From Opitutales bacterium (GTDB lineage Bacteria > Verrucomicrobiota > Verrucomicrobiia > Opitutales > T3Sed10-336): a stretch of DNA of 34,573 bases. The notes beneath the pieces are model-generated. The model saw nothing but the letters and a program-made list of their open reading frames with translations, ran no database searches and was not told the origin of the DNA. The first letter of the stretch is position 1. Each line of letters begins with the position of its first letter. This document shows, piece by piece, positions 7,244 through 25,261 of this stretch. The position numbers were made by a program, and so were the translations under genes. The DNA is taken from assembly GCA_007130045.1 (NCBI GenBank), contig SLTG01000065.1, forward strand, positions 1 to 34,573, read 5' to 3'.

Positions 7244-7423
7244 TCAGTGTACAAATAAGACGGGGAAGGCCAAGAACGGAGTTAATCGAACGGAATCCAT
7301 TCGATAAGATTCGACGGGTCGCCCGTCATCCCCGATCCGGATCCTGCCGACATGCAGGCGGAATCGAATGAGTAACAGGCTGAGGGCGGTCGTGGCGAGC
7401 AGCGTTATCAGACCGTTCTCCAA
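7244..7423 (-). CDS. Possible 59-aa membrane-like small ORF
   Basis: Between the membrane-protein gene (ends 7471) and the epimerase gene (starts 7237) one minus-strand frame is open from TTG 7423 to TGA 7244-7246. The reading begins LENGLITLLATTALSLLLIR, a plausible transmembrane helix, followed by a basic/polar part with HVGRIRIGDDGRPVESYRMD. It fills an otherwise empty 233-nt gap and ends 6 nt before the next start, as in an operon. Against it: a TTG start, no SD, and no family recognised. Treat as a candidate only. Confidence 0.3.
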   Translation of the reverse strand: MENGLITLLATTALSLLLIRFRLHVGRIRIGDDGRPVESYRMDSVRLTPFLAFPVLFVH

Positions 7424-7470
7424 AAACCCGTTCCAATGGGGCGCGGAGACGCGTGGAACCTGCGAGCTGT

Positions 7471-8115
7471 TTACTCGTCCCGCTCGCCTTCGTCTGCTTC
7501 TTCCTCTTCTTCCTCGGGTTCGGTTGAGATCGTGAGAGCAACCAAGTGGTTGTTAAACGAATAAACCAGAGCCAGGGGAACGATGACGACCGCGACGTTC
7601 AAGGCCAGCGGCAGAAGGGAATGGCCCAGCATGTAGCCGAAAATCGCGAGAACCCCTGCGGTTATCCAGAACTTCAGTTCCAGACTGTTGCTCATGACGG
7701 ACGCGCAAATGGCGGCCACGATGGCGTATACACCGAGAAGCCACCCGGAAAGAACCACTGTGACTCCCCAAATGAATACGACGGGAGCGTGGAAAAAGAA
7801 GATCCGGTGCCAATGCACGGTCTGGAGAACGATCGCGATTCCCAGAATCGCGGCCTTTGTCCCCATGACAAGGTAGTCGGCGTGTTCGACATCTGGATCC
7901 GGGAAAATGGCGAGATTGATCAGGCAATAAGCCCCGGCGAAGGCGCGGATTCCGTCCAGCCAGTTCTGCCAGCAGCCCATGTAGTTCAGCAACGTAAAAT
8001 CGAAACCGTAAACATTCGAAATCATCCTTTCCTTCGCACTTTCGGGATAGAAGAAGGGGGCCGGTATCCAGAGCAACAGGATAGAGATGATAAGATAAAT
8101 CCAAATAATTTCCAT
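7471..8115 (-). CDS. Multi-pass membrane protein with acidic C-terminal tail
   Basis: A 214-residue inner-membrane protein of unknown function. About six hydrophobic segments are visible: IIWIYLIISILLLWIPAPFF at the N-terminus, AFAGAYCLINLAIF, AILGIAIVLQTVHW, FFHAPVVFIWGVTVVLSGWL with VYAIVAAICASVM, FWITAGVLAIFGYML and LALNVAVVIVPLALVY. The chain ends in a strongly acidic tail with an unbroken Glu run (EPEEEEEEADEGERDE). It looks complete, with ATG 8115. It heads a possible minus-strand unit with the epimerase gene. No family is recognised and no function proposed. Confidence 0.75.
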   Translation of the reverse strand: MEIIWIYLIISILLLWIPAPFFYPESAKERMISNVYGFDFTLLNYMGCWQNWLDGIRAFAGAYCLINLAIFPDPDVEHADYLVMGTKAAILGIAIVLQTVHWHRIFFFHAPVVFIWGVTVVLSGWLLGVYAIVAAICASVMSNSLELKFWITAGVLAIFGYMLGHSLLPLALNVAVVIVPLALVYSFNNHLVALTISTEPEEEEEEADEGERDE

Positions 8116-8429
8116 ATACGCAAAAGCCGTTTCATCATCCCATCCGAAACGTTCGCCACCGTCTGGTCCGGTCCGGCGCGACAGGAATTCCGCTACTCAA
8201 GCCGACTTGGAGAGATGCTGTAAACAACAAAATAACAGTTTTATGCATTCGGATTCACCCCATCGCTTCAATAAATTCCGATCGGCTTGATCGACCGCAC
8301 TTCGGGCAAGGGAAAGTCATTCCGGGAAAAACGCCGTGATGCCGCGGGAACCGGGTCTTCTTGGAAGCTCCCTGTTTGTTATTGCGATTTCATTGTCCTG
8401 AATACAGCAGTTTTGAAAACTGAATCACG
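8116..8429. other. Divergent intergenic region (314 nt)
   Basis: This region separates the minus-strand membrane-protein gene from the plus-strand PIG-L-fold gene and should hold both promoters. It is AT-richer than its flanks around 8221-8275. The only clear structure is the palindrome at 8408-8422. A half copy (ACAGTTTT) lies near 8235. I see no coding frame or RNA gene. Confidence 0.6.
8408..8422. promoter_or_regulatory. 15-bp perfect palindrome upstream of the PIG-L-like gene
   Basis: CAGTTTTGAAAACTG is a perfect palindrome around a central G and ends 7 nt before ATG 8430, where the ribosome would bind. It could be a repressor operator or a small hairpin limiting translation. The function is inferred from position only. 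Confidence 0.4.
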
Positions 8430-9290
8430 ATGAATCCCTATCGAAAGCATGTGTCCGAGTTCGCTCGTCTATACCGCGAAGGGCGCGACATTCCCTTGGG
8501 AGAATTATCGTCGCCGCCGGCGCTTCACCTGCCGCCGGATGCGTGGAAGGTGTTGATATTCTCCCCGAATCCCGGCGATGAGGCGATCGCCGGAGGCCTC
8601 GCTCTGCGTCTGATGCGGGAGAACCGGATGCGAGTGACCAACGTGGCCGTGACCCATGGGAGCGACCGGGATCGGCGTTCGGGGAGATTGGGGGAGTTGA
8701 GAAAAAGCTGCGACTACATCGGATTCGACCTGCGGCGGACCGCAGTGGACGGATTGGAAAACGTCAACGTGCGCAACCGCGAGGAGAATCCGGGCGATTG
8801 GATATCGTCGGTGGAAACGATTGTGGAAATTCTGAAAGAACACCGGCCGGAGATCGTTTGCTTCCCGCATGACACCGATCAGAACAGCGTGCACATCGGC
8901 ACGCATTATCTAATGGTTGACGCCCTCGAACGGCTGCCCCGCTCCATTTCCTTTTACACGGTCGAGACTGAATTCTGGAGTCCGATGGCGTCGCCGAATC
9001 TGATGGTTGAGCAGAGTGAAGCGGATGCCGGAGATCTGGTTGCGGCGCTTTCGTGCCACGCCGGAGAGGTGCGTTTGAATCCCTATCATCTGCGCCTGCC
9101 GGCATGGCTGATGGACAACGTCCGTCGTGGCGCCGCCCTGGTCGGGAATCGCGGGAGCGGGACCGACGTTACCTTTGCGGTCCTTTACCGGCTCCGACGG
9201 TGGGAGCAGGGGCGCTTTCGCAACGTCCTCGAAAGGGGACGCTTTCTCGCGGCCTCGGAAAACGCCGGACTTCTGTTTCCACTGTTGTAG
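8430..9290 (+). CDS. PIG-L-family protein with altered catalytic motif
   Basis: A 286-residue protein with the LmbE/PIG-L fold, whose active members are zinc N-deacetylases of GlcNAc-type substrates (MshB, BshB, PIG-L). Family landmarks are present: VLIFSP-x-P-x-DEAIAGGLALRLM (from about residue 41), VTNVAVTHGSDRDRR (69-83), LGELRKSCDYIGF, and the second metal segment FPHDTDQNSVHIGTH (145-159). The hallmark (A/S)-x-H-P-D-D-E motif is SPNPGDE here (45-51). The His zinc ligand is Asn47 (AAT, 8568-8570) and the first, catalytic Asp is Gly49 (GGC, 8574-8576); the metal-binding Asp50 remains. The His of the usual H-P-D-H is also not conserved (NSVH). The protein may be catalytically dead or use another mechanism. 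The reading frame is intact, so it is probably expressed. Confidence 0.85.
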   Translation: MNPYRKHVSEFARLYREGRDIPLGELSSPPALHLPPDAWKVLIFSPNPGDEAIAGGLALRLMRENRMRVTNVAVTHGSDRDRRSGRLGELRKSCDYIGFDLRRTAVDGLENVNVRNREENPGDWISSVETIVEILKEHRPEIVCFPHDTDQNSVHIGTHYLMVDALERLPRSISFYTVETEFWSPMASPNLMVEQSEADAGDLVAALSCHAGEVRLNPYHLRLPAWLMDNVRRGAALVGNRGSGTDVTFAVLYRLRRWEQGRFRNVLERGRFLAASENAGLLFPLL

Positions 9291-14910: not shown

Positions 14911-14988
14911 GCCCAAGTGAGAAAAATGTTGACAGGCAACACCGAAAGTAAGCACAGTCCCCTCTCGCCAAGCAAGAAAAGAAGCTGT

Positions 14989-15013
14989 AAAAAATCCCGC
15001 TTCGGATGTTTTT
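14989..15013 (+). promoter_or_regulatory. Leader hairpin with A6/T5 flanks before the export operon
   Basis: A6 (14989-14994), then T, C, CCG, a CTT loop, CGG, AT, G and T5 (15009-15013) form an imperfect hairpin with bulges. It sits in the 173-nt divergent region, 71 nt before the first gene of the export block. It resembles an intrinsic terminator but has no gene before it on this strand, so a leader attenuator is possible. A TATAAG (15051-15056) closer to the gene could be a downstream -10 box. Confidence 0.3.
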
Positions 15014-15083
15014 CTCTTGCTCCGGAGAGTTCACCCCCTATCCTCCAGGTTATAAGTTTAAATCGCCTAACTAAAAAAAAATC

Positions 15084-15578
15084 ATGAAATACCTGAAATC
15101 AATCCTCGTTCTTGCCGCTCTGGCCTCCTATTCAGTCTCCTTCGCTCAAGCCAATCTCGACGAGATTATCAGCGAGATCCATGCCGATCCCGCCGACCTT
15201 GAGTCCATTGTTGCGATGAGCGTGGCCGATAATCCCGGCGAGGCCGCGGCGATTACCGCGGGAGTCCTCGCGGAATTCCCGGATGAAGCCGCGCGCATCG
15301 CCGGAAGCGCGATCGCCGGGCTTCCGGAAAAAACCGCGGATACTGTCGGCGAAATTGTCCGTCTGGCTGTCGCGGCAAATCCCGCCGCTGTCGAGGATGT
15401 TATCAGTGCCGCGAATGCCGCCACCGGAGATGTGGATTTATCAGGGCCGATCGATGAGGCAGCGGCGGCGGGACTGGAAGACTCCAGGGACGTTGTTCGT
15501 GTGGCGCCGCGTCCGGCTCCGGTTTCTCCAACTCCCGGGATCGCTATCGATGCATCCATTATCAGCCCCAGCCGGTAA
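15084..15578 (+). CDS. Secreted helical-repeat protein (164 aa)
   Basis: A signal peptide (MKYLKSILVLAALASYSVSF, cleavage near AQA-N at residue 23) leads a 140-residue alanine-rich mature protein. Five short helical units each begin with a proline: Pro36, Pro51, Pro66, Pro81 and Pro100. The spacing is exactly 15, 15 and 15, then 19 residues. Each unit follows the pattern P-x-(E/D/A)-x(4-5)-I-x(4)-(A/V)-x-A. A proline-rich tail follows (RPAPVSPTP, about 143-151). No cysteine is present. I do not recognise a named family. It is first in the block with the barrel, OPX and kinase genes, so a periplasmic accessory role in polymer export is plausible, but this is inference from position. Confidence 0.8.
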   Translation: MKYLKSILVLAALASYSVSFAQANLDEIISEIHADPADLESIVAMSVADNPGEAAAITAGVLAEFPDEAARIAGSAIAGLPEKTADTVGEIVRLAVAANPAAVEDVISAANAATGDVDLSGPIDEAAAAGLEDSRDVVRVAPRPAPVSPTPGIAIDASIISPSR

Positions 15579-15678
15579 CAGACGGTGACTCTATTCGGGA
15601 TACGGGGATTCCCTCCGATTCGGAGATCGCCGTGTCCGCTTGAGGTTCGCAAAATAAAATCTGTAAGTAAGCAAAAAA

Positions 15679-16845
15679 ATGATGAAGCTGCATTTCCCTC
15701 CTTATCTACCTTCGGTTAAAACTGTTGCCGCCACTTCCCTTGCGGCAACAATGGCAGCCCTCACTGCAAATGGCGCACCCCTTGTGGCCGTCGGTGAACG
15801 GGGCGAGATATTCTTCAACGGCAGCGTCACCCTCAGAGCGGACGACAATGTATTCCTCTCGGGAATCGAAGAGGAATCCGACGTGATCTTCATCTTCTCG
15901 CCCGGTGTCGAATTTTCCTATGGTGGCGACGCGATCTGGAACGCCAGCGCTTATTACCGCGAAGATATCTACCGCTACACCGACAACAGCGAGCTCAATA
16001 CGAATAACTCGAACGTCTTCCTCAATGCGAACTACGGGGATGCGCGTTTGGAGGGTTCGTTCGACGCCTCCTACCAGCGGTTGGTTCAAAATACATTCGA
16101 TCTTGCAGGAGAGGGGTTCCTGGTCGAACGTGATGTCTACCGGATCGGTGTCGGCGGAGAATATGATCTGACCCAGTTTATAGACGTTGGAAGCGGGATT
16201 TCGTATCAGCGAACCGATTTTAAACGCCGCGAGTTCCGCGATACCGAGGTCATCAGCGTTCCTGTTGACGTTTATTACAATCTGAGCCCAACGATCGATC
16301 TGAGCGCCGGTTACCGGTTTCGCGACAACAACACGCGGGGAACCGGGCTCGATTCCCAGGACCACTTTTTCAATGTCGGCATTCGCGGGGAGGTGACCCC
16401 GTTGATCATGGGTTCGTTCAAGATCGGTTACCAAGAGCGGCGTTTCAAGGATAGCGACGCCCCCGACGATCGGACCGGGCTCGCCTTTGACGGCCAGGTT
16501 ACCTGGGATGCCAGTGATCGGATTAATGTAAGCATTCACGGGAATCGCGATCTTCGCTATGGAGCTCGGGGCAACACCATTGAGCAGACCGGCGGAGGCG
16601 CGCGAGTCACTTATCTCTTCACCGAATTGCTTGCGGGTGGAGGCGGTCTCCGTTACCAGGAATCCCGCTATAAGGAATTCGACCGCAAGGATGATCGGTG
16701 GACCGCCGACATTGGGCTGACCTATTCTCCGAACGAATATGTTGACCTTTCCGCGGATTACATTTATACGAATAATGATTCGAATGTTTCCGCCGCCGAT
16801 CTGGATCGGAATATTTTTCAGTTGACAGCCGCGCTGAGATATTAA
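15679..16845 (+). CDS. Outer-membrane beta-barrel of a polysaccharide export locus
   Basis: A 388-residue protein with a signal peptide (hydrophobic about 16-33, ending TANGAP) and a mature part made of alternating amphipathic strands ending in aromatic residues: FFNGSVTLRADDNVF, VIFIFSPGVEFSYGG, WNASAYYREDIYRYT, LEGSFDASYQRLVQNTF, RIGVGGEYDLTQF, VDVYYNLSPTIDLSAGYRF, and so on, closing with FQLTAALRY. A C-terminal Tyr after alternating residues is typical of BAM-inserted barrels. I estimate 16-18 strands. ATG 15679 and ATG 15682 are adjacent candidates. With the short OPX gene 86 nt downstream it fits a composite OPX/beta-barrel polysaccharide translocon of the kind described in Myxococcus. 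The barrel is clear; the transport role rests on neighbourhood. Confidence 0.85.
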   Translation: MMKLHFPPYLPSVKTVAATSLAATMAALTANGAPLVAVGERGEIFFNGSVTLRADDNVFLSGIEEESDVIFIFSPGVEFSYGGDAIWNASAYYREDIYRYTDNSELNTNNSNVFLNANYGDARLEGSFDASYQRLVQNTFDLAGEGFLVERDVYRIGVGGEYDLTQFIDVGSGISYQRTDFKRREFRDTEVISVPVDVYYNLSPTIDLSAGYRFRDNNTRGTGLDSQDHFFNVGIRGEVTPLIMGSFKIGYQERRFKDSDAPDDRTGLAFDGQVTWDASDRINVSIHGNRDLRYGARGNTIEQTGGGARVTYLFTELLAGGGGLRYQESRYKEFDRKDDRWTADIGLTYSPNEYVDLSADYIYTNNDSNVSAADLDRNIFQLTAALRY

Positions 16846-16859
16846 TTTGGATGATTCCT

Positions 16860-16883
16860 GCGCCCGATAATCGCTTAGGGCGC
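16860..16883 (+). other. Inverted repeat between barrel and OPX genes
   Basis: GCGCCC (16860-16865) pairs with GGGCGC (16878-16883) with a 12-base loop, 15 nt after the barrel gene stop. It could trim expression between the two genes or stabilise the upstream mRNA. No T-tract is adjacent. Confidence 0.25.
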
Positions 16884-16931
16884 CGGAAGAGTCTTTTATC
16901 CGGGGAGGAACCTTTTATTTGGGATTAACTC

Positions 16932-17540
16932 ATGCTCAAACGTCTTACTGTCTTCACAAGTCTATTGCTTATTCCCGTGCTTCTTGCCGCCTCCGATACC
17001 GGGGCGGCATCGGCGTCTGAAGCCGCGGAGATTCAAACCTCCGATTACATAATCAACTCATCGGATCTGCTTCATTTCCAAGTATTTCAGGAAGAGGACC
17101 TCACGCGCCAGGTTCGGGTTTCACAGAGTGGAAACATCACCCTTCCAATGGTGGGAACCATTGAAGTAAAAGGAAAAACCGTCGAGGAGGCTCAGCGACT
17201 CCTTACGGAACGGTATGATGCGGACTTTTTGGTCAACCCTCAGATCAATCTCTCGGTGATCGAATACTCCCGGCGGACCGTCAACGTTCTCGGATCCGTG
17301 AACGCACCGGGAACCGTCCCGTTCCCGCCTGAGGACTCGATGACATTGATGGACGCTATCTCCGCCGCCGGCGGTTTCCAGCGGTCCGGTAACCGTCGTA
17401 ACGTAATTCTGCGACGAACGACTGAAAACGGTGTTCAGCGATACTCAGTCGATACCCATTCGATTATTCAGGGCGACAGCCCGGTGGTATGGCAGCTTCA
17501 GCCCGGCGATCAAATTTACGTGCCAGAGAGGATCTGGTAA
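16932..17540 (+). CDS. Short polysaccharide export (OPX/Wza-like) protein
   Basis: A 202-residue exported protein. Signal peptide about 1-27 (TVFTSLLLIPVLLAASDTGA). The Poly_export domain spans about 37-115: YIINSSDLLHFQVFQEEDL, VSQSGNITLPMVGTIEVKGK, EEAQRLLTERYDADFLVNPQ. One SLBB domain follows (VNVLGSVNAPGTVPFPP to LQPGDQIYVPERIW). Classical Wza has about 380 residues, a lipobox cysteine, several SLBB domains and a C-terminal amphipathic helix that forms the outer-membrane pore. This protein has no cysteine at all, one SLBB and no such helix. It therefore cannot span the outer membrane by itself in the Wza manner and probably docks to the barrel encoded upstream. It precedes the kinase gene by 21 nt. 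Confidence 0.92.
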   Translation: MLKRLTVFTSLLLIPVLLAASDTGAASASEAAEIQTSDYIINSSDLLHFQVFQEEDLTRQVRVSQSGNITLPMVGTIEVKGKTVEEAQRLLTERYDADFLVNPQINLSVIEYSRRTVNVLGSVNAPGTVPFPPEDSMTLMDAISAAGGFQRSGNRRNVILRRTTENGVQRYSVDTHSIIQGDSPVVWQLQPGDQIYVPERIW

Positions 17541-17561
17541 TTCAAACGAACGTATTTAACA

Positions 17562-19796
17562 ATGTCCAACAGTCCATCGCCCAGAGATCAACATCACAAT
17601 AAGCCGACTACCGGTTACGGGTACGGGTACTATCCCGACAGCACGTCCTATTACTCGGACCAGCACGACGACAGTCCGCAGCGCAGCCTGAAGGATTACC
17701 TCCTCATATTCCGTGAAAGGTTCTGGTACATCCTCGTCGTTTTCCTGCTCTTCTTTTCCGGAGTTTTGATCTACACCCTCACCCGGACCGAAATCTATGA
17801 AGCGCGTTCCACCGTGGAGCTTCTTCGCCAAGATTCGAGGGTGATGCAGATCGAGCAGGTGATGAGCCAGGAAATTCGGAACCAGGAGGATTTTAACACA
17901 CAGATTCGGATCCTCGAGAGCGGGCGAATCGTCCGGGCGGTGGCTAGCAGAATGACGGAAGCGGAGCGCAACCGCTTCATGCAGCCCTTTGAGGAGCCCG
18001 AAGCAACCGGGCGTTTCGTTGGTATCGAACAGTTGCTGTTCGAGAACCGGCAGATTGTTCCGGGACGGATGAACCTCATCGTCGAAGTGCGCTTCCGCCA
18101 CCCCGACCGCGAAGTGGCGATGGACGTTGCCGATTATTTTGTTGAGGAATATATCGCCTACAACCTGAACGTACGGATCGACGAGTCCATGCGGGCGATG
18201 GAAGAGCTTACGGCCAAGGCTGAAGATCAGGCGAGGGAACTGCAGCGAATCGAAGAGCGGCGGAATCAATACATGGCGGATATGGGCTCCATTTCCCTTG
18301 ATTGGAGAACCGATCTTCAGAGGGATTCCCTTCGTGATTTGAATCTTCGAATCAACGACAGCGAACAAGCGTTTAGGCGGGCTTCGACCCTCTGGAACCA
18401 GATCCAGGATTACCGGGACGAGGGACTTCCGCTGACGGGAATTCGAACCATCGCCAATCAACCGGATGTCAATGAGTTGTTGTTGAATCTCCGCAATTTG
18501 AATGTCACCCGGGGACGTTTGGCTCAGCGATACCGCGACCAGCATCCGCGAATGATCGAGATCGATCAGGCGATTCTTGAGACTGAAAGCGAACTGGATA
18601 TGGCTGTTCAAGCGGCAGTTGGCAAAATCGAGGGCGACTTCCGGCGAGCGCGCGATGATTATCAGGCGGATATGACCACCCTCAATCAACTGGAGGAGGA
18701 CGCCAAACAATTGAGAGATCTTCGAGTTGAGTTTGATCGGCTAAGCCGGGAGGCCGAGGTGCAGGAATTTCTCTACCAGTACCTAATCCGACGGGAACGC
18801 GAGACCACTTTGACGAGTACGATCGACACTGTAAGCGCGCGTCCTCTGGACTGGGCGACGGCGTCGTTGCGGCCCGTCACTCCCAATATTCCTCTGAACC
18901 TCGGCCTTGGGCTTCTTGGAGGGCTCGGCCTCGGAATCGGGGTTGCGTTCGTGGTTGCCTTCCTCGACGACCGGGTGAAGAGCGCCTTTGACATCGAATC
19001 GATCGTCGGTCTGCCATTGCTCGGAATCCTCCCCGAAGTGAAAAAGCTCAAGCAGGAAGACAAGGTGAAGATTGCCTTTACGGGCACCGATCGACACGTC
19101 GTCGAATCATTCCGATCACTTCAGTCCAGTCTGAAACTGAGCAAGGTGAGCAACAGTGCTCAATGTATCATGATCACCAGTAGCTTGCCAGGCGAAGGTA
19201 AATCGTTTGTCAGCTCGAATCTCGCGCTGACCTATGCGGTAAACGGCGAGAAGACAATACTGGTCGACGGCGACCTTCGGATGCCAAGTGTGCACAAATC
19301 GCATAAACTCAAGAATGACAAGGGCGTGATTTCCTACTGCCACGACAACATGGAACTCGACGGCCTCATTCATAAGGATATTCATCCAAATTTCGATATC
19401 CTTACGACGGGTGGAAAGGCGAAGAATCCGACGCAGACGATCAATAGCGTCGCCTTCGAGAATATGATCGCGGAGCTGAGAAAGAAATATGCCCGTGTGA
19501 TTATCGATACGCCTCCGTTGGCCGCTGTCAGTGACGCGCTTATTATCATGCAGCATACCGATGGCTCGCTGTTCACGATGAAGTTCAATAAGGTCCGCCG
19601 AAGCGCGGCCAAGCATAACGTCCGTCGTTTAATGTCTTCGGACACCCCGGTGTTCGGGGCGGTTCTGAATCACCTGAATATTTCGGTCGGCGGTTACTAT
19701 TACGCCCAATATTACGATAAGTCCTATCGCGACTACTACTACGTGAGGGAAAGCGACAAGGCGAAACAGCGGGAGACGATCCCTCCTAAGGCCTGA
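17562..19796 (+). CDS. Polysaccharide co-polymerase/BY-kinase (Wzc-like)
   Basis: A 744-residue inner-membrane protein joining a Wzz-type chain-length domain to a bacterial tyrosine kinase. TM1 is about 54-73 (FWYILVVFLLFFSGVLIY), the periplasmic coiled-coil region about 75-440, and TM2 about 446-468 (GLGLLGGLGLGIGVAFVVAF). The kinase has Walker A TSSLPGEGKSFVSSNLA (about 538-555), Walker A' ILVDGDLRMPS (about 566-577) and Walker B VIIDTPP (about 645-651). The C-terminus carries a nine-tyrosine cluster (712-727, YYY-AQ-YY-DKSY-RD-YYY), the expected autophosphorylation site. Unusually, the cytoplasmic N-terminus also has six tyrosines between 19 and 31. Known relatives control polymer length and export by cycles of phosphorylation. 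A dedicated phosphatase is not seen here. A strong terminator follows. Confidence 0.95.
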   Translation: MSNSPSPRDQHHNKPTTGYGYGYYPDSTSYYSDQHDDSPQRSLKDYLLIFRERFWYILVVFLLFFSGVLIYTLTRTEIYEARSTVELLRQDSRVMQIEQVMSQEIRNQEDFNTQIRILESGRIVRAVASRMTEAERNRFMQPFEEPEATGRFVGIEQLLFENRQIVPGRMNLIVEVRFRHPDREVAMDVADYFVEEYIAYNLNVRIDESMRAMEELTAKAEDQARELQRIEERRNQYMADMGSISLDWRTDLQRDSLRDLNLRINDSEQAFRRASTLWNQIQDYRDEGLPLTGIRTIANQPDVNELLLNLRNLNVTRGRLAQRYRDQHPRMIEIDQAILETESELDMAVQAAVGKIEGDFRRARDDYQADMTTLNQLEEDAKQLRDLRVEFDRLSREAEVQEFLYQYLIRRERETTLTSTIDTVSARPLDWATASLRPVTPNIPLNLGLGLLGGLGLGIGVAFVVAFLDDRVKSAFDIESIVGLPLLGILPEVKKLKQEDKVKIAFTGTDRHVVESFRSLQSSLKLSKVSNSAQCIMITSSLPGEGKSFVSSNLALTYAVNGEKTILVDGDLRMPSVHKSHKLKNDKGVISYCHDNMELDGLIHKDIHPNFDILTTGGKAKNPTQTINSVAFENMIAELRKKYARVIIDTPPLAAVSDALIIMQHTDGSLFTMKFNKVRRSAAKHNVRRLMSSDTPVFGAVLNHLNISVGGYYYAQYYDKSYRDYYYVRESDKAKQRETIPPKA

Positions 19797-19817
19797 CAGT
19801 CAGCGAAAACCTTTATA

Positions 19818-19856
19818 AAAAACGCCCCGCCGGGTCACTACCGGCGGGGCGTTTTT
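19818..19856. terminator. Strong bidirectional intrinsic terminator
   Basis: A perfect 16-bp stem (19818-19833 with 19841-19856), GC-rich in the middle, has a 7-base loop GTCACTA. The arm ends are A5 and T5, so it works on either strand. It lies 21 nt after the kinase gene stop and 65 nt beyond the end of the convergent rpsR, so it probably serves both. Confidence 0.93.
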
Positions 19857-19921
19857 GTTAAAGCGGAAAAAGTTATAAGGGAGTCCCGAACGGCACCCCT
19901 TCAATCGGATGGACGAGCCAG

Positions 19922-20360: not shown

Positions 20361-22493
20361 TCATTCCAGAAGCATGACCTGAAGACGAAGGAACCGCCGC
20401 TGTTCCGTTACGGGGTCCTCTACACGCATCATGTTGTCGAGGTTATTCGCCTGCGTGTCCTCCCTTGAGTCGTAGAGCACGTCGCTCCAGTCTTCGAGGT
20501 CGCCGGACGCCTGAACGACGCAGGCAATGTCGCTCAGGGCAGGGTTGCGACGGAAAATGATCGCAGCCATGGATCCCTCATGATCGATCTGCGGCAGAAC
20601 GGCGGCACCGGGAGCGCGAGGATCGCCGCCCAGGGCGTACTCCAAGAGATTCTTTACGCCGTCGCCGTCCGGATCGGCGTCCGGGCCGGCAGTCTCGGGA
20701 TCGTTATTTTTTTTCCGGATCCGGAAAATATTCCTCGATCCAATCTGCGAAACCAACCGCCGTAGTCCAGGATATGCGCATCACCTCACTTCCACAGTCT
20801 TCGACCGTATCCACCTCTACCGACAAAAAGCCCCTGTAGGGTCGATATGCGATTCCCCGGTGGATCGTTTCCCCGTCGGGGTCGCGAATCAGGAACTGAA
20901 AATCGGCGTTTTCGATCCTGTCGGCGAGACCTTCGCCGATTCCTGTGAAAAAGCCGTCCTTGAAAACGTCCCCGCCTGAGTTCCCTGGGAGCGTGAATCT
21001 TTATCCTGTTTTACGTCGAGAGTGGTTCCCTGGGCCAGGGAGATCAGTATACTGCTTTCGTCATCGAGGCTGCCTTCGAGTAGCGACACCGTCTGGAGAG
21101 CGTTTCCGAGAGAGAGAGATCCAGTTCATCGCCCCCTTCGGCAACGAGTTCGAGAGACCCCGACCCGAGTTGCGATCCCGATTCCACCATAATGTTCCCG
21201 GTCATCAGATAGGTTCCTCCTTCGTAAAGGTCATTGCTTCCTGAGAGCACAAGCGTTCCTCCACCGGATTTGAGCAACATTCCCGTCCCCGTCAGCGCCC
21301 CGGACAGAGTCAGCCGGTGGGCGCTACCGTCCACGTGTACATGTGAATCGCCGGCGAAAACGACATCGTTCGTCACGGTACCCTCGTGGAAATCCTCTTC
21401 CGACTCCCGGAACTCCAATTCCGGATCGAGACGTAGCGCCCCGAGGCGACCGGCCTGCGGGATGGATACAGGATCTTCATCGGGTCCAAGGCTGTTGAGA
21501 ATCAACTCGCCTCCGAAGGCGTAGGTCCGGGGACTACCATGAGAAACCAGACGCAACTGACCGCCCGGATTTACCTTTATGGAAGAGGTGGCCGGTGGGA
21601 ACGGACGATTCCGTGACCCTGAGTACGCCGCCGTCGACGACCGTTGGTCCGGTGTAGTTCTTGTTGTCTCCAGTGAGTGACAGTACGCCGAAACCTTCCT
21701 TGATGAGGCCGCCCGCTCCGAATACACTCTCCCGGATCCGGAGGGCGCCGAATTCGCTGACGGAATTCACATTGTCGACGGTGACACGAAGACCGCCGGT
21801 CAATTCAATTCCCTCTTCGATCCGCAGTTCATTGAAACCGAAACCGATTCCTCCAATCAGCAGGTGGGCGCCCGTGGAGCTATCGTCGAATGTCAGAGCT
21901 CCGCCCCCTCCGGCGAGCCTGTTTCGTGAGCTGGTGTCATTGTTGAGGACCAGTCGGCCCACCGTGATATTCTCCCCAAGGGAGACCTCGCGATCGCTGT
22001 CCGACATCAGATGAATGGTGGCTCGTTCAGCGGTTCCGTCAGGAAAAGTGTCGCTGCTCCAGTTGGTGTCCATATTCCAGAAACCGTCCCCCTGGGGAAG
22101 AAAAACAGGGTCATCACCGAGATCGGTATAGGCGGGAACCGGACCGTGTTCGGCGTGAACTGTTGCACCGAACGGTTCCTCAGCCACGGTAAACGACAAC
22201 GGATCTCCGGTCTGCAACGAGCGTTCCTCGACCCGGAGAATGCCGGCGTCGAGATCGTTCGGAATCAGCGTTCCCCAATGACGGTCGCGACCGGCAACCT
22301 GGTGCGTGTAGAACCTGGAATAACGCTCGTCGACCTCCGCTTCCACAGGCCGTTCCGCGAAGCTGCAAGGTCCGTCCGCGAGGTCGTGGGGAGAAGGTGA
22401 ATCAGCCGGGATGAATCCCGGGACCGAAGCAAAGAGGAGAAACTGACCGGAGATTAGAACGCGCTTGGCTCGTAAAGACGGCTTTGCTTTCAT
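20361..22493 (-). pseudogene. Frameshifted autotransporter-type beta-strand-repeat surface protein
   Basis: One gene read in five frame segments. Segment A (from ATG 22493) has a signal peptide (VLISGQFLLFASVPGF) and repeats such as FGVLSLTGDNKNYTGPTVVD. It slips near 21590-21600 into segment B (SSIKVNPGGQLRLVSHG, GTLVLSGSNDLYEGGTYL), at the CT repeat near 21108-21119 into C (SLLEGSLDDESSILISLAQG), near 20990-21010 into D (FTLPGNSGGDVFKDGFFTG), and at an 8-T run (20707-20714; A8 on this strand) into E (NDPETAGPDADPDGDGVKNL, ending RRFLRLQVMLLE). The repeats are autotransporter-associated beta-strand repeats, and segment E resembles the C-terminal domain of Verrucomicrobial surface proteins with a calcium-type DxDxDGD loop. 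As written no full product is made. The net shift is zero modulo 3. A decayed gene, a phase-variable gene or assembly errors are all possible. Confidence 0.85.
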
Positions 22494-22626: not shown

Positions 22627-23730
22627 TCATCGGGCCATGTCGGGAATGTCGACGTCGACGAATTCGCCGGGCCGCACTTCAAGTGTCGGGGGGAGGCTGA
22701 TGAGGAGCGGCAGACCCGACTCGTAGGCGTCAAAGAAGGGAGTCCGGTGGGCGGGACTGAGGGGTTCGACTTGGGCGCCGATGGAAATGATCTCTCCAAT
22801 GCCGTGGGACTTTGTGGCGTTGCGCGCCCGCACATTGACTTGTGCGCCGAGTTGAGGTTCGAACCTTAGAGGCTGCTTCAGGTAGGCGATGATTTGATCA
22901 GCTGCCCCCGAGCGAATTGTAAGGATTGTTTCACCCGCCGCCAGATTCGCCCGGTTCGTGCGATGGATCATGGAAACCATTCCAGAGATCGGGGCAATAA
23001 GGGGGGCCGGACGCAATTCGGCTTCAATAAGCTTGAGCCGTTCTTCGTGAAGGTTCAGCGCCGCAACGATCGCGTCAGCGGTGTCGGCGCGCGGTTCGGA
23101 CGTCCCGCCTCTGAGCCGATCGAGTGTCTGGTCCGTTTCTTCAACCAGGATTTCCTGTTCGGTGACGATCGTCCGCAACATTTCCGCGAGGTCCCTGATC
23201 TGCTCGTATTGTTCGGCGGAAACGTGTCCCTGTTGGTGAAGCCTTGAATAGCGCTCCTCGTTGCGTTCCGCCTGCTGCAATTCAATCCGCCGGATCGCCA
23301 GGTCCGTACGTTTCTCCAGCAGGTCGAGACGCAGTTCCTCCTGCTGCAAGAGATTCCGTTGTTGGTCCAGCACGGGATCGAACCAGCCCATGCGCGTGAG
23401 CTCGATCTCCATCTTGAGCACCGCGAGGGAGGATTGCAGGACATCCGGCGGCGTTCGGATGACTTGCCCCACCGTTTGACCTGCTTCCACTTCATCAAAG
23501 CGCTCGATGAAGAGCTGGGCCAGACCTCCGGCTGAGGGAGAGGTGACTACGCCGGTGACTCCTTCGACTTCGCCCGTTAACATTCCGGGTCTTGTCTGGT
23601 CCCGCCACAGGACTGCCACCGCGATCACGACCCCCACGAAGATAAGGAAAGGCAGCGCTTGTATGCGGAACTCTCGCCACCGCAGCTTCAGAGGGGTGGG
23701 TATGGGTGATCGTTCTTTCATCGGTGTCAC
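22627..23730 (-). CDS. HlyD-like membrane-fusion (adaptor) protein
   Basis: A 367-residue periplasmic adaptor. A single N-terminal transmembrane helix (about 28-43, LPFLIFVGVVIAVAVLW) leads to a lipoyl-like half (GVVTSPSAGGLAQLFIERFD, EVEAGQTVGQVI), a long alpha-helical hairpin (about 95-220, Gln/Glu/Leu-rich, with NEERYSRLHQQGHVSAEQYE), the second lipoyl half (APLIAPISGMVSMIHR) and a beta-barrel end (RPGEFVDVDIPDMAR). The start is GTG 23730, overlapping the DUF4956 stop as GTGA; ATG 23721 is an alternative. No ABC, RND or MFS partner is next to it, which is unusual for the family. It is third in an overlapping trio with the VTC and DUF4956 genes. Confidence 0.88.
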   Translation of the reverse strand: MTPMKERSPIPTPLKLRWREFRIQALPFLIFVGVVIAVAVLWRDQTRPGMLTGEVEGVTGVVTSPSAGGLAQLFIERFDEVEAGQTVGQVIRTPPDVLQSSLAVLKMEIELTRMGWFDPVLDQQRNLLQQEELRLDLLEKRTDLAIRRIELQQAERNEERYSRLHQQGHVSAEQYEQIRDLAEMLRTIVTEQEILVEETDQTLDRLRGGTSEPRADTADAIVAALNLHEERLKLIEAELRPAPLIAPISGMVSMIHRTNRANLAAGETILTIRSGAADQIIAYLKQPLRFEPQLGAQVNVRARNATKSHGIGEIISIGAQVEPLSPAHRTPFFDAYESGLPLLISLPPTLEVRPGEFVDVDIPDMAR

Positions 23731-24413
23731 ATTTCCGATTCGTCTCTGGCTGTCAGCCCGGTCACGCGAGCGGTCCCCGGAATCGATCGAACTTCTTTGA
23801 ACAGATCGTCAACCCGGGAGGGATCCCGGAGAAGTAGGCGGTAGGAGAGGTCCGTGCCCTCGCCTTCGTCGTGCGCGCGCTGGCTGGCGCATTGCGTGCG
23901 TCGGCTGTGCCGGTTGAGCAGCGAGACCAACTCCGGCAGCTCGGCCAGGGGGCGGTTCCAGTGAAGGTTCAACACGAGGTCGTAACGGTGGCGGCTCCCG
24001 AATGAGGCGGTGTGCAGGTAAAGAAGGATGCCGCCGAGAATAGCCAGTCCGATCACTGTCGTGGCGTAGCGCTGGGTGCCCGCCGCCATGCCGACCGTGA
24101 TCGCGGACAGGATGTAGCACGTGTCCAGCGTGTCGCGCAGAATGTTTCGAAAACGTACGATCGCGAAAAGAGCCATGAGACCGAACGCGGTGATGATGTT
24201 GTTGGCAAGCACCATCATCACCATCGCCACAAGAAAAGGAATGATCACCAGTGAATTCACGTAGGTGCGCGAATAGGACAGTCCGCTGTGTGTGATCATG
24301 TAAACCCAGGCAAGCACCTGCCCGCTGAGGAACGCGAGGAGCATGCCCAGGACTACCGACTGCATGTTGACCGGTTCCCTCGCGAATTCTCCGCCGAGTA
24401 GTGTCTCAATCAT
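23727..24413 (-). CDS. DUF4956 integral membrane protein
   Basis: A 228-residue membrane protein. After a short N-terminus come membrane segments QSVVLGMLLAFLSGQVLAWV, SLVIIPFLVAMVMMVLANN, the AFGLMALFAIVRFRNILRDT loop and AITVGMAAGTQRYATTVIG with AILGGILLYL. The FGL-x-A-x-x-IVRFR-x-x-x-D-x-x-D and VGMAAG motifs are the DUF4956 signature. The last ~80 residues are soluble with an ACT-like alternation (DLVLNLHWN, YRLLLRDPSRVDDLF, RVTGLTARDES). I chose ATG 24413, which overlaps the VTC gene stop as ATGA; ATG 24443 would add ten residues. Known gene neighbourhoods often pair DUF4956 with VTC-domain and CotH proteins. No CotH is present here. Confidence 0.9.
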   Translation of the reverse strand: MIETLLGGEFAREPVNMQSVVLGMLLAFLSGQVLAWVYMITHSGLSYSRTYVNSLVIIPFLVAMVMMVLANNIITAFGLMALFAIVRFRNILRDTLDTCYILSAITVGMAAGTQRYATTVIGLAILGGILLYLHTASFGSRHRYDLVLNLHWNRPLAELPELVSLLNRHSRRTQCASQRAHDEGEGTDLSYRLLLRDPSRVDDLFKEVRSIPGTARVTGLTARDESEM

Positions 24414-25261
24414 GTTGATGTTGGAGATTGATAGTCCCCACATGGCGAACCCCGGGGACCGATCCGGCGAGCGCGTTCGCGAGCGAATCCGCTCCCCATG
24501 GGACGGTAAATCTGATTCAGAATGTGCAGTCCTTCCATGAGTTCGACACCGTCGACGTACTTGGCTGCGGAAGTTGGACGCAGACCGAAAACGCGGACGA
24601 GTTCCGCGAGCCAGTCGGGAAAGCGGCTCATGAATTTCAGTTCCATGACGGTGCAGTCGCCGAATACGCTGACCGGATAATCCATCTCGGGAACGAGCCG
24701 CGCGGTCGCTTCGGGACAGCTGCGCACGTTGCGGTCGAAGGTGACCCGCACCGAATTGTCGCCTTCTCGAGGCATCCACGCTTCCCTCATGTAAGCTACG
24801 TGAACCCGGGGCCGGGCCCGCAGTTCATTAACATGGGTGCAAAACGTTTGAAGCGCGCGCAGGTGGTTCGGGTCGTTCGACGCCATTTGATTCTCCTCCG
24901 GCAACTGACCGGCGATAACAGCGTTAACGGCATTGCGATGCACCGCACCCCGTTCCTTGCTGATCGTGTTGTCGTGACGGCGCTTGATCTCGAAATAAAC
25001 CGGGGCTCCCGGGCGGTTCTCGTAAAAGCGCACGCGCAATTTGTACCGGTCCTTGTCTCCGTTGATCGTGCTTTGGTGCAGGGCAAAGTCATCCGAATCC
25101 AGGTACAGGCTGTGAACGGGGTACGAACAGTCCGGGCGGGTGGCGGCGTATTCGTCGAGCACGAGGCAGGAGCTCACGAAGCCTCTGGCGGCTGCGGCCG
25201 TACTTTCCGGAATGATGTATTTAAACTCAAAACGCTGAGACTGGAGACGATCACTATGCAT
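24410..25261 (-). CDS. VTC-domain protein (polyphosphate polymerase-like)
   Basis: A 283-residue soluble protein with the VTC tunnel fold (related to yeast Vtc4, which makes polyphosphate from ATP). Visible beta-barrel residues: RFEFKYIIPES near the start, VHSLYLDSDDFALHQSTING, YKLRVRFYEN, VYFEIKRRHDNTISKERG, VRVTFDRNVRS, TVMELKFMSRFPDWL and SAAKYVDGVEL. These contain the Lys/Arg and Glu residues lining the tunnel in the family. Start taken at ATG 25261, with GGGGAG about 15 nt upstream; a GTG at 25297 is in frame. The stop overlaps the DUF4956 start (ATGA), so the two are translationally coupled. Whether the bacterial protein synthesises polyphosphate is unproven. Confidence 0.88.
   Translation of the reverse strand: MHSDRLQSQRFEFKYIIPESTAAAARGFVSSCLVLDEYAATRPDCSYPVHSLYLDSDDFALHQSTINGDKDRYKLRVRFYENRPGAPVYFEIKRRHDNTISKERGAVHRNAVNAVIAGQLPEENQMASNDPNHLRALQTFCTHVNELRARPRVHVAYMREAWMPREGDNSVRVTFDRNVRSCPEATARLVPEMDYPVSVFGDCTVMELKFMSRFPDWLAELVRVFGLRPTSAAKYVDGVELMEGLHILNQIYRPMGSGFARERARRIGPRGSPCGDYQSPTST

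Follow-up and report, generated by a model that had tools for sequence, protein, structure and literature searches.

A probable composite OPX/β-barrel polysaccharide exporter encoded apart from synthesis genes in Opitutales

We propose that a compact locus in the genome of an Opitutales bacterium encodes a composite OPX/β-barrel exporter of the EpsX/EpsY kind. In this reading, which we consider likely, the locus is the envelope-spanning export half of a Wzx/Wzy-type pathway, vertically kept, with synthesis encoded elsewhere. The window, the stretch of DNA analysed here, is one whole contig of 34,573 nucleotides whose edges are the contig ends. It comes from an assembly of 146 contigs (3.4 Mb, 96.7% complete), and statements on this genome beyond the contig are drawn from family searches. 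The four plus-strand ORFs that a preliminary description had grouped into a block are all present (Table 1), separated by 100, 86 and 21 bp, and families were matched for the barrel, OPX and kinase genes. The strong terminator claimed in that description was borne out by folding of the region 19797–19870 (−38.5 kcal/mol, z −5.9); a terminator scanner had overlooked this hairpin because its stem absorbs the T run. No sigma-70-like match was found in the intergenic region between the TPR and HEL genes.

Table 1. Features of the export locus (window coordinates)
Feature	Position	Strand	Remarks
TPR protein, one N-terminal membrane helix	13288..14910	-	Likely start ATG 14910; ORF reaches 14955
TPR–HEL intergenic region, probable divergent promoter region	14911..15083	.	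Basis: position only
HEL: signal peptide, seven-helix repeat domain, disordered tail with conserved end (TPGIAIDASIISPSR)	15084..15578	+	
Outer-membrane β-barrel, 18 strands in model	15679..16845	+	PF10082 BBP2_2
Short OPX protein, 202 aa, Wza D1–D2 only	16932..17540	+	PF02563 and SLBB
PCP-2 type Wzz/GNVR and BY-kinase, tyrosine-rich C-terminus	17562..19796	+	
Hairpin terminator, perfect 16-bp stem with T run	19820..19855	+	Basis: RNA folding

The other window genes scanned with Pfam and NCBIfam encode IF3, an amidase, RF3, an aldose epimerase, PIG-L, a Na/H antiporter, TrhO, HlyD, DUF4956, DsbD, MFS, Fe-ADH, PhoH and TPR proteins. Directly downstream of the block, on the minus strand, lies a PATR (autotransporter-like) gene (20361–22493) that is open only across several frames and is a pseudogene or an assembly error. 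Further along the same strand (22627–24779), a gene for an HlyD-type membrane-fusion protein adjoins one for a protein with a DUF4956 match.

The barrel and OPX proteins resemble those of the Myxococcus type, as the preliminary description had supposed. The barrel matches PF10082 (BBP2_2) in Pfam at 1.5e-24. Its structural model (pLDDT 88, residue numbering off by one in places) predicts 18 strands, counting residues 68–73 and 76–81 as one strand broken at the invariant Pro75. Against the PDB, AlgE alginate exporters give the top TM-scores among the matches listed (0.50–0.52), but many porins score nearly as high, with E-values as good or better, and BBP2_2 barrels are similar in fold to many porins. 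The OPX protein matches PF02563 (9.2e-22) and SLBB in Pfam. The OPX family profile aligns with Wza residues 57–231 of 359 and the protein stops there, and therefore has no further domain and no outer-membrane helix. With its PES motif (PF02563) and a length within the 280 aa allowed, it agrees with the OPX proteins of composite translocons. The kinase combines Wzz and GNVR matches in its periplasmic part with an above-cut-off match to the BY-kinase model TIGR01007 (6.4e-43). It carries a P-loop (SSLPGEGKS), Walker A′ (ILVDGDLR) and Walker B (VIIDTPP) motifs and 9 Tyr in its final 45 residues, as expected of a BY-kinase PCP-2 of the Wzc type. The neighbouring TPR protein matches PF14559 and other TPR models in Pfam, with a predicted hydrophobic helix at about residues 44–73 of the 555-aa ORF.

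The preliminary description had proposed to compare the gene order of OPX and BY-kinase orthologues, and this comparison revealed that barrel–OPX–kinase adjacency recurs throughout the order. In a linkage set of 99 non-duplicate Opitutales loci, with counts made on all ORFs, the OPX gene lies directly upstream of the kinase gene at 76 of 82 loci, a lower bound given that L075, L094, L095, L102, L138 and L142 show OPX in the gene map. The coupled gene for an 18-strand barrel, a hallmark of composite translocons, lies within 2.5 kb at 80 of 82. Because this order recurs in around 80 genomes, the arrangement is not due to chance. TPR orthologues are divergent from the block at 58 of 78 loci, and the conserved unit is TPR(divergent)–barrel–OPX–kinase, not HEL–barrel–OPX–kinase; of the four-gene unit first described, the last three genes are near-invariant, HEL is limited to some lineages and the TPR gene had been left out. 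A close BY-kinase orthologue is found in most Opitutales with larger genomes. Within a sample of 289 genomes from the phylum, orthologue-level matches (above 680 bits) occur only in Opitutales, with matches outside the order staying below 500 bits. The block is retained across the order, even in genomes of about 1.3–1.4 Mb (G189, G246), a persistence that points to an important surface polymer. The block is usually flanked by genes that, judged by their sequences, encode HisC together with a CorC/CNNM protein at one end and either Sua5 or UppP at the opposite end; Pfam confirms the HisC and CorC types on contig C122 of the window's genome. UppP recycles the lipid carrier, yet is also a housekeeping protein. 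The block has most likely been kept by vertical descent in Opitutales. An RmlD-like NDP-sugar reductase gene lies just past HisC in several Opitutales loci (for example, L053:17777-18670), a possible sugar-supply link.

HEL, by contrast with the conserved unit, is an accessory confined to some lineages, and matched no family in Pfam or NCBIfam. In its AlphaFold2 model the signal peptide is followed by seven helices (core pLDDT 93–98), and a fold search against the PDB gave no match below E 1.4. The best sequence-profile match in the PDB, a DsbA-like protein (0.012), was taken as chance. Nearly all HEL members have a tail terminating in SPS, SPN or a close variant. HEL lies beside the TPR gene in 8 of 8 genomes of the window's family (G000–G007), followed by barrel, OPX and kinase wherever the contig continues. 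Outside the family it is found at this position in L085 and L132, and L108 has a doubtful match (5.6e-4). The gap between TPR and barrel genes measures 48–429 bp at loci without HEL versus 555–772 bp at loci with it (four outliers in the list stem from ORF calls that overlap or from an additional copy of the barrel gene), so that most loci have no room for HEL. It is possible, although we find it doubtful, that HEL is unrelated to export and merely has a promoter or transcript in common with the block. Its absence from most orthologous loci would be consistent with this idea, but its fixed position within the family and in L085 and L132 argues against it, as does the presence of HEL-like domains at the front of a PilQ-type secretin, another outer-membrane gate. 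Such domains occur both in this secretin and in its operon neighbour (2.6e-14 and 2.8e-21), in the window's genome as well as in related ones, and also in a 564-aa protein of G006 (1.9e-42); they are alanine-rich repeats, and the weaker scores may be partly compositional. HEL may be an adaptor for outer-membrane gates. In the window's own genome, the secretin and its neighbour (contig C112, L069:4979-7297 and 7254-8990) carry the helical-repeat domain N-terminally, after the signal peptide. On contig C26 (L066:8448-8975), a small secreted protein of 175 aa that ends in SPS is encoded beside the Wzy gene of a second export set; its layout resembles that of HEL (signal peptide, probably helical part, flexible tail), with no detectable homology.

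We then asked where the polymer could be made. In line with the preliminary description, model searches (Pfam and NCBIfam) found no glycosyltransferase, flippase or polymerase among the scanned window genes, and GT2, GT4, Wzy_C and flippase models had no match on the block's contig. All 8 PF00535 and 9 PF00534 matches in the window's genome lie on other contigs. In the flanks of 108 loci (1.86 Mb), a search seeded with the window genome's own glycosyltransferases detected such genes at four loci only (L108, L117, L059 and L100). L108 has a real glycosyltransferase cluster about 2 kb downstream of the block, with four genes from the seeded search and one from Pfam. For 189 flanking proteins, the top 25 Pfam families listed include no glycosyltransferase family with at least two members; single matches could hide in this tally, for which the seeded search compensates in part. 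By this search, glycosyltransferases in the flanks of the block, which would have spoken against a detached exporter, were detected at these four loci only. Contig C109 of the window's genome (L210) encodes two GT4 glycosyltransferases, three sulfotransferase-like proteins, a Kdo/WaaP-type kinase and a MacB-like ABC exporter, possibly a sulfated glycan or lipid pathway.

Polymerase candidates are encoded elsewhere in every block-holding genome examined: 46 of 46 holders encode a Wzy_C protein, versus 10 of 16 non-holders. The Wzy_C family also includes O-antigen ligases, and genome size confounds the comparison in that non-holders mostly have small genomes; we therefore regard this co-occurrence as weak evidence. 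The window's genome has Wzy_C matches on C26 and C122. The Wzy gene on C26 lies next to a second set of BY-kinase, OPX and barrel genes, and paralogous kinases of G002, G041 and G147 likewise have a Wzy_C match within about 1–3 kb, unlike the orthologous block. On C122 the Wzy_C gene is next to HisC and CorC, which border the block in relatives. In G004, of the same family, 2.5 kb separate the TPR gene from a Wzy-type gene just past HisC–CorC, and the C122 and G004 Wzy proteins are 29% identical over 481 residues. These two arrangements make this Wzy a plausible partner that was once a neighbour of the block in the window's family. They also favour an alternative that we nevertheless judge unlikely, in which the block is the export remnant of an ordinary compact cluster: an ancestral Wzy, perhaps with further genes, adjoined HisC–CorC and the block, rearrangement in this lineage dispersed the cluster, and the C122 Wzy is its dedicated polymerase. 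Against this, two Wzy seeds found no relative outside the family in flanks that keep HisC–CorC by the block; Wzy there therefore looks like a feature of the family and not like what the ancestor of the order possessed. Also on C122 (L211:5542-8469), a TPR protein of 975 aa that weakly matches Wzy_C_2 is encoded near the Wzy_C gene and HisC–CorC.

The detached-exporter reading also has evidence against it, because for the upstream pathway searches of the window's 96.7%-complete genome found neither a dedicated initiating transferase (PF02397) nor a clear Wzx. The only Wzx-like match there, obtained with flippase models on contig C39, looks like MurJ from the start of the protein and was not counted as Wzx. 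None of the linked glycosyltransferases, Wzx, Wzy and initiating transferase that make up a complete Wzx/Wzy cluster was found at the locus. Taken together, the label of a block without synthesis genes stands for the window and is qualified by the G004 and C122 Wzy genes and the L108 cluster. The suggestion of a stand-alone exporter for a polymer made elsewhere is strengthened by detachment among housekeeping flanks throughout the order, which is therefore not an accident of this contig.

In our preferred reading of a composite exporter, the polymer would be assembled on a lipid carrier, a Wzy protein encoded elsewhere would polymerise it in the periplasm, and the Wzz/BY-kinase would set chain length and gate the process through tyrosine phosphorylation cycles. 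The polymer would then pass through a ring that the short OPX protein forms in the periplasm and enter the 18-strand barrel, the candidate outer-membrane pore because the OPX protein has no membrane-spanning domain. By analogy to the TPR scaffolds of synthase-dependent systems, the TPR protein, with its predicted anchor in the inner membrane, is probably a bridge to the OPX/barrel complex, and HEL may be a periplasmic accessory of this gate in some lineages. A broader idea, which we offer as quite improbable, is that TPR–barrel–OPX–kinase forms a general port untied to any one cluster, combining an OPX/Wzc gate with a synthase-type TPR bridge, and that in one family the port and the type IV pilus secretin have in common a helical adaptor domain whose C-terminal tail is conserved. 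The port type is already known; for its order-wide detachment and extra periplasmic parts we found no published description.

Composite OPX/β-barrel translocons are established in Myxococcus xanthus (PMC9601211). Its EpsY/EpsX, ExoA/ExoB and WzaB/WzpB pairs (PMC9601211, PMC9603273) resemble the Opitutales block in the short D1–D2-only OPX protein, the adjacent gene for an 18-strand barrel with an AlgE-like fold and the Wzz-type PCP. The myxobacterial pairs sit in polysaccharide clusters, whereas the Opitutales block lies among housekeeping genes across the order, with the kinase fused to the PCP, a TPR gene in divergent orientation and HEL in certain lineages. Published OPX surveys looked for polysaccharide genes in the neighbourhood of OPX and retained only the cases that had them, so detached export sets are easily overlooked or left unassigned. 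Under a criterion of one polysaccharide gene within five genes, for which a PCP (Wzz) alone may count, 287 couples with a PCP as nearest gene were left unassigned (PMC9601211). At our locus only the PCP itself qualifies; neither Wzx nor Wzy nor a glycosyltransferase was found in the window.

The same parts (barrel, OPX, PCP and BY-kinase) make up the EpsE–EpsF–EpsG–EpsL set of XrtB/XrtA systems (TIGR03028, TIGR03017, TIGR03029 and TIGR03014); in the Opitutales block, PCP and kinase are one protein, and linkage to exosortase or glycosyltransferase genes is absent. We consider it highly improbable that the block provides EPS export for an exosortase/PEP-CTERM sorting system of XrtA or XrtB type: the window's genome has two exosortases, and the barrel matches TIGR03016 and EpsL, the OPX protein EpsE and TIGR03027, and the PCP EpsF, but every associated match falls under the curated equivalog cut-offs, for which reason we rejected set membership, no block homologue was found in the stretches examined around either exosortase, and PEP-CTERM loci usually carry glycosyltransferases (PMC1569441).

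E. coli Wza–Wzc has OPX D1–D2 homology and a PCP with BY-kinase in common with the block, but Wza adds further domains and an α-helical outer-membrane pore where the Opitutales block couples a barrel gene. In the same phylum, cps1 of Akkermansia muciniphila also includes Wza and Wzc, within a complete 26-kb locus that, unlike the block, contains Wzy, Wzx, WbaP and glycosyltransferases (PMC13343947). The synthase-dependent exporters AlgK/AlgE, PgaA and BcsC pair a TPR protein with a barrel of 16–18 strands, as does the block, which differs in having OPX and Wzz/BY-kinase proteins, no linked synthase, and a TPR protein predicted to be anchored in the inner membrane. The divergent TPR gene offers a testable link between two exporter classes that are usually treated apart.
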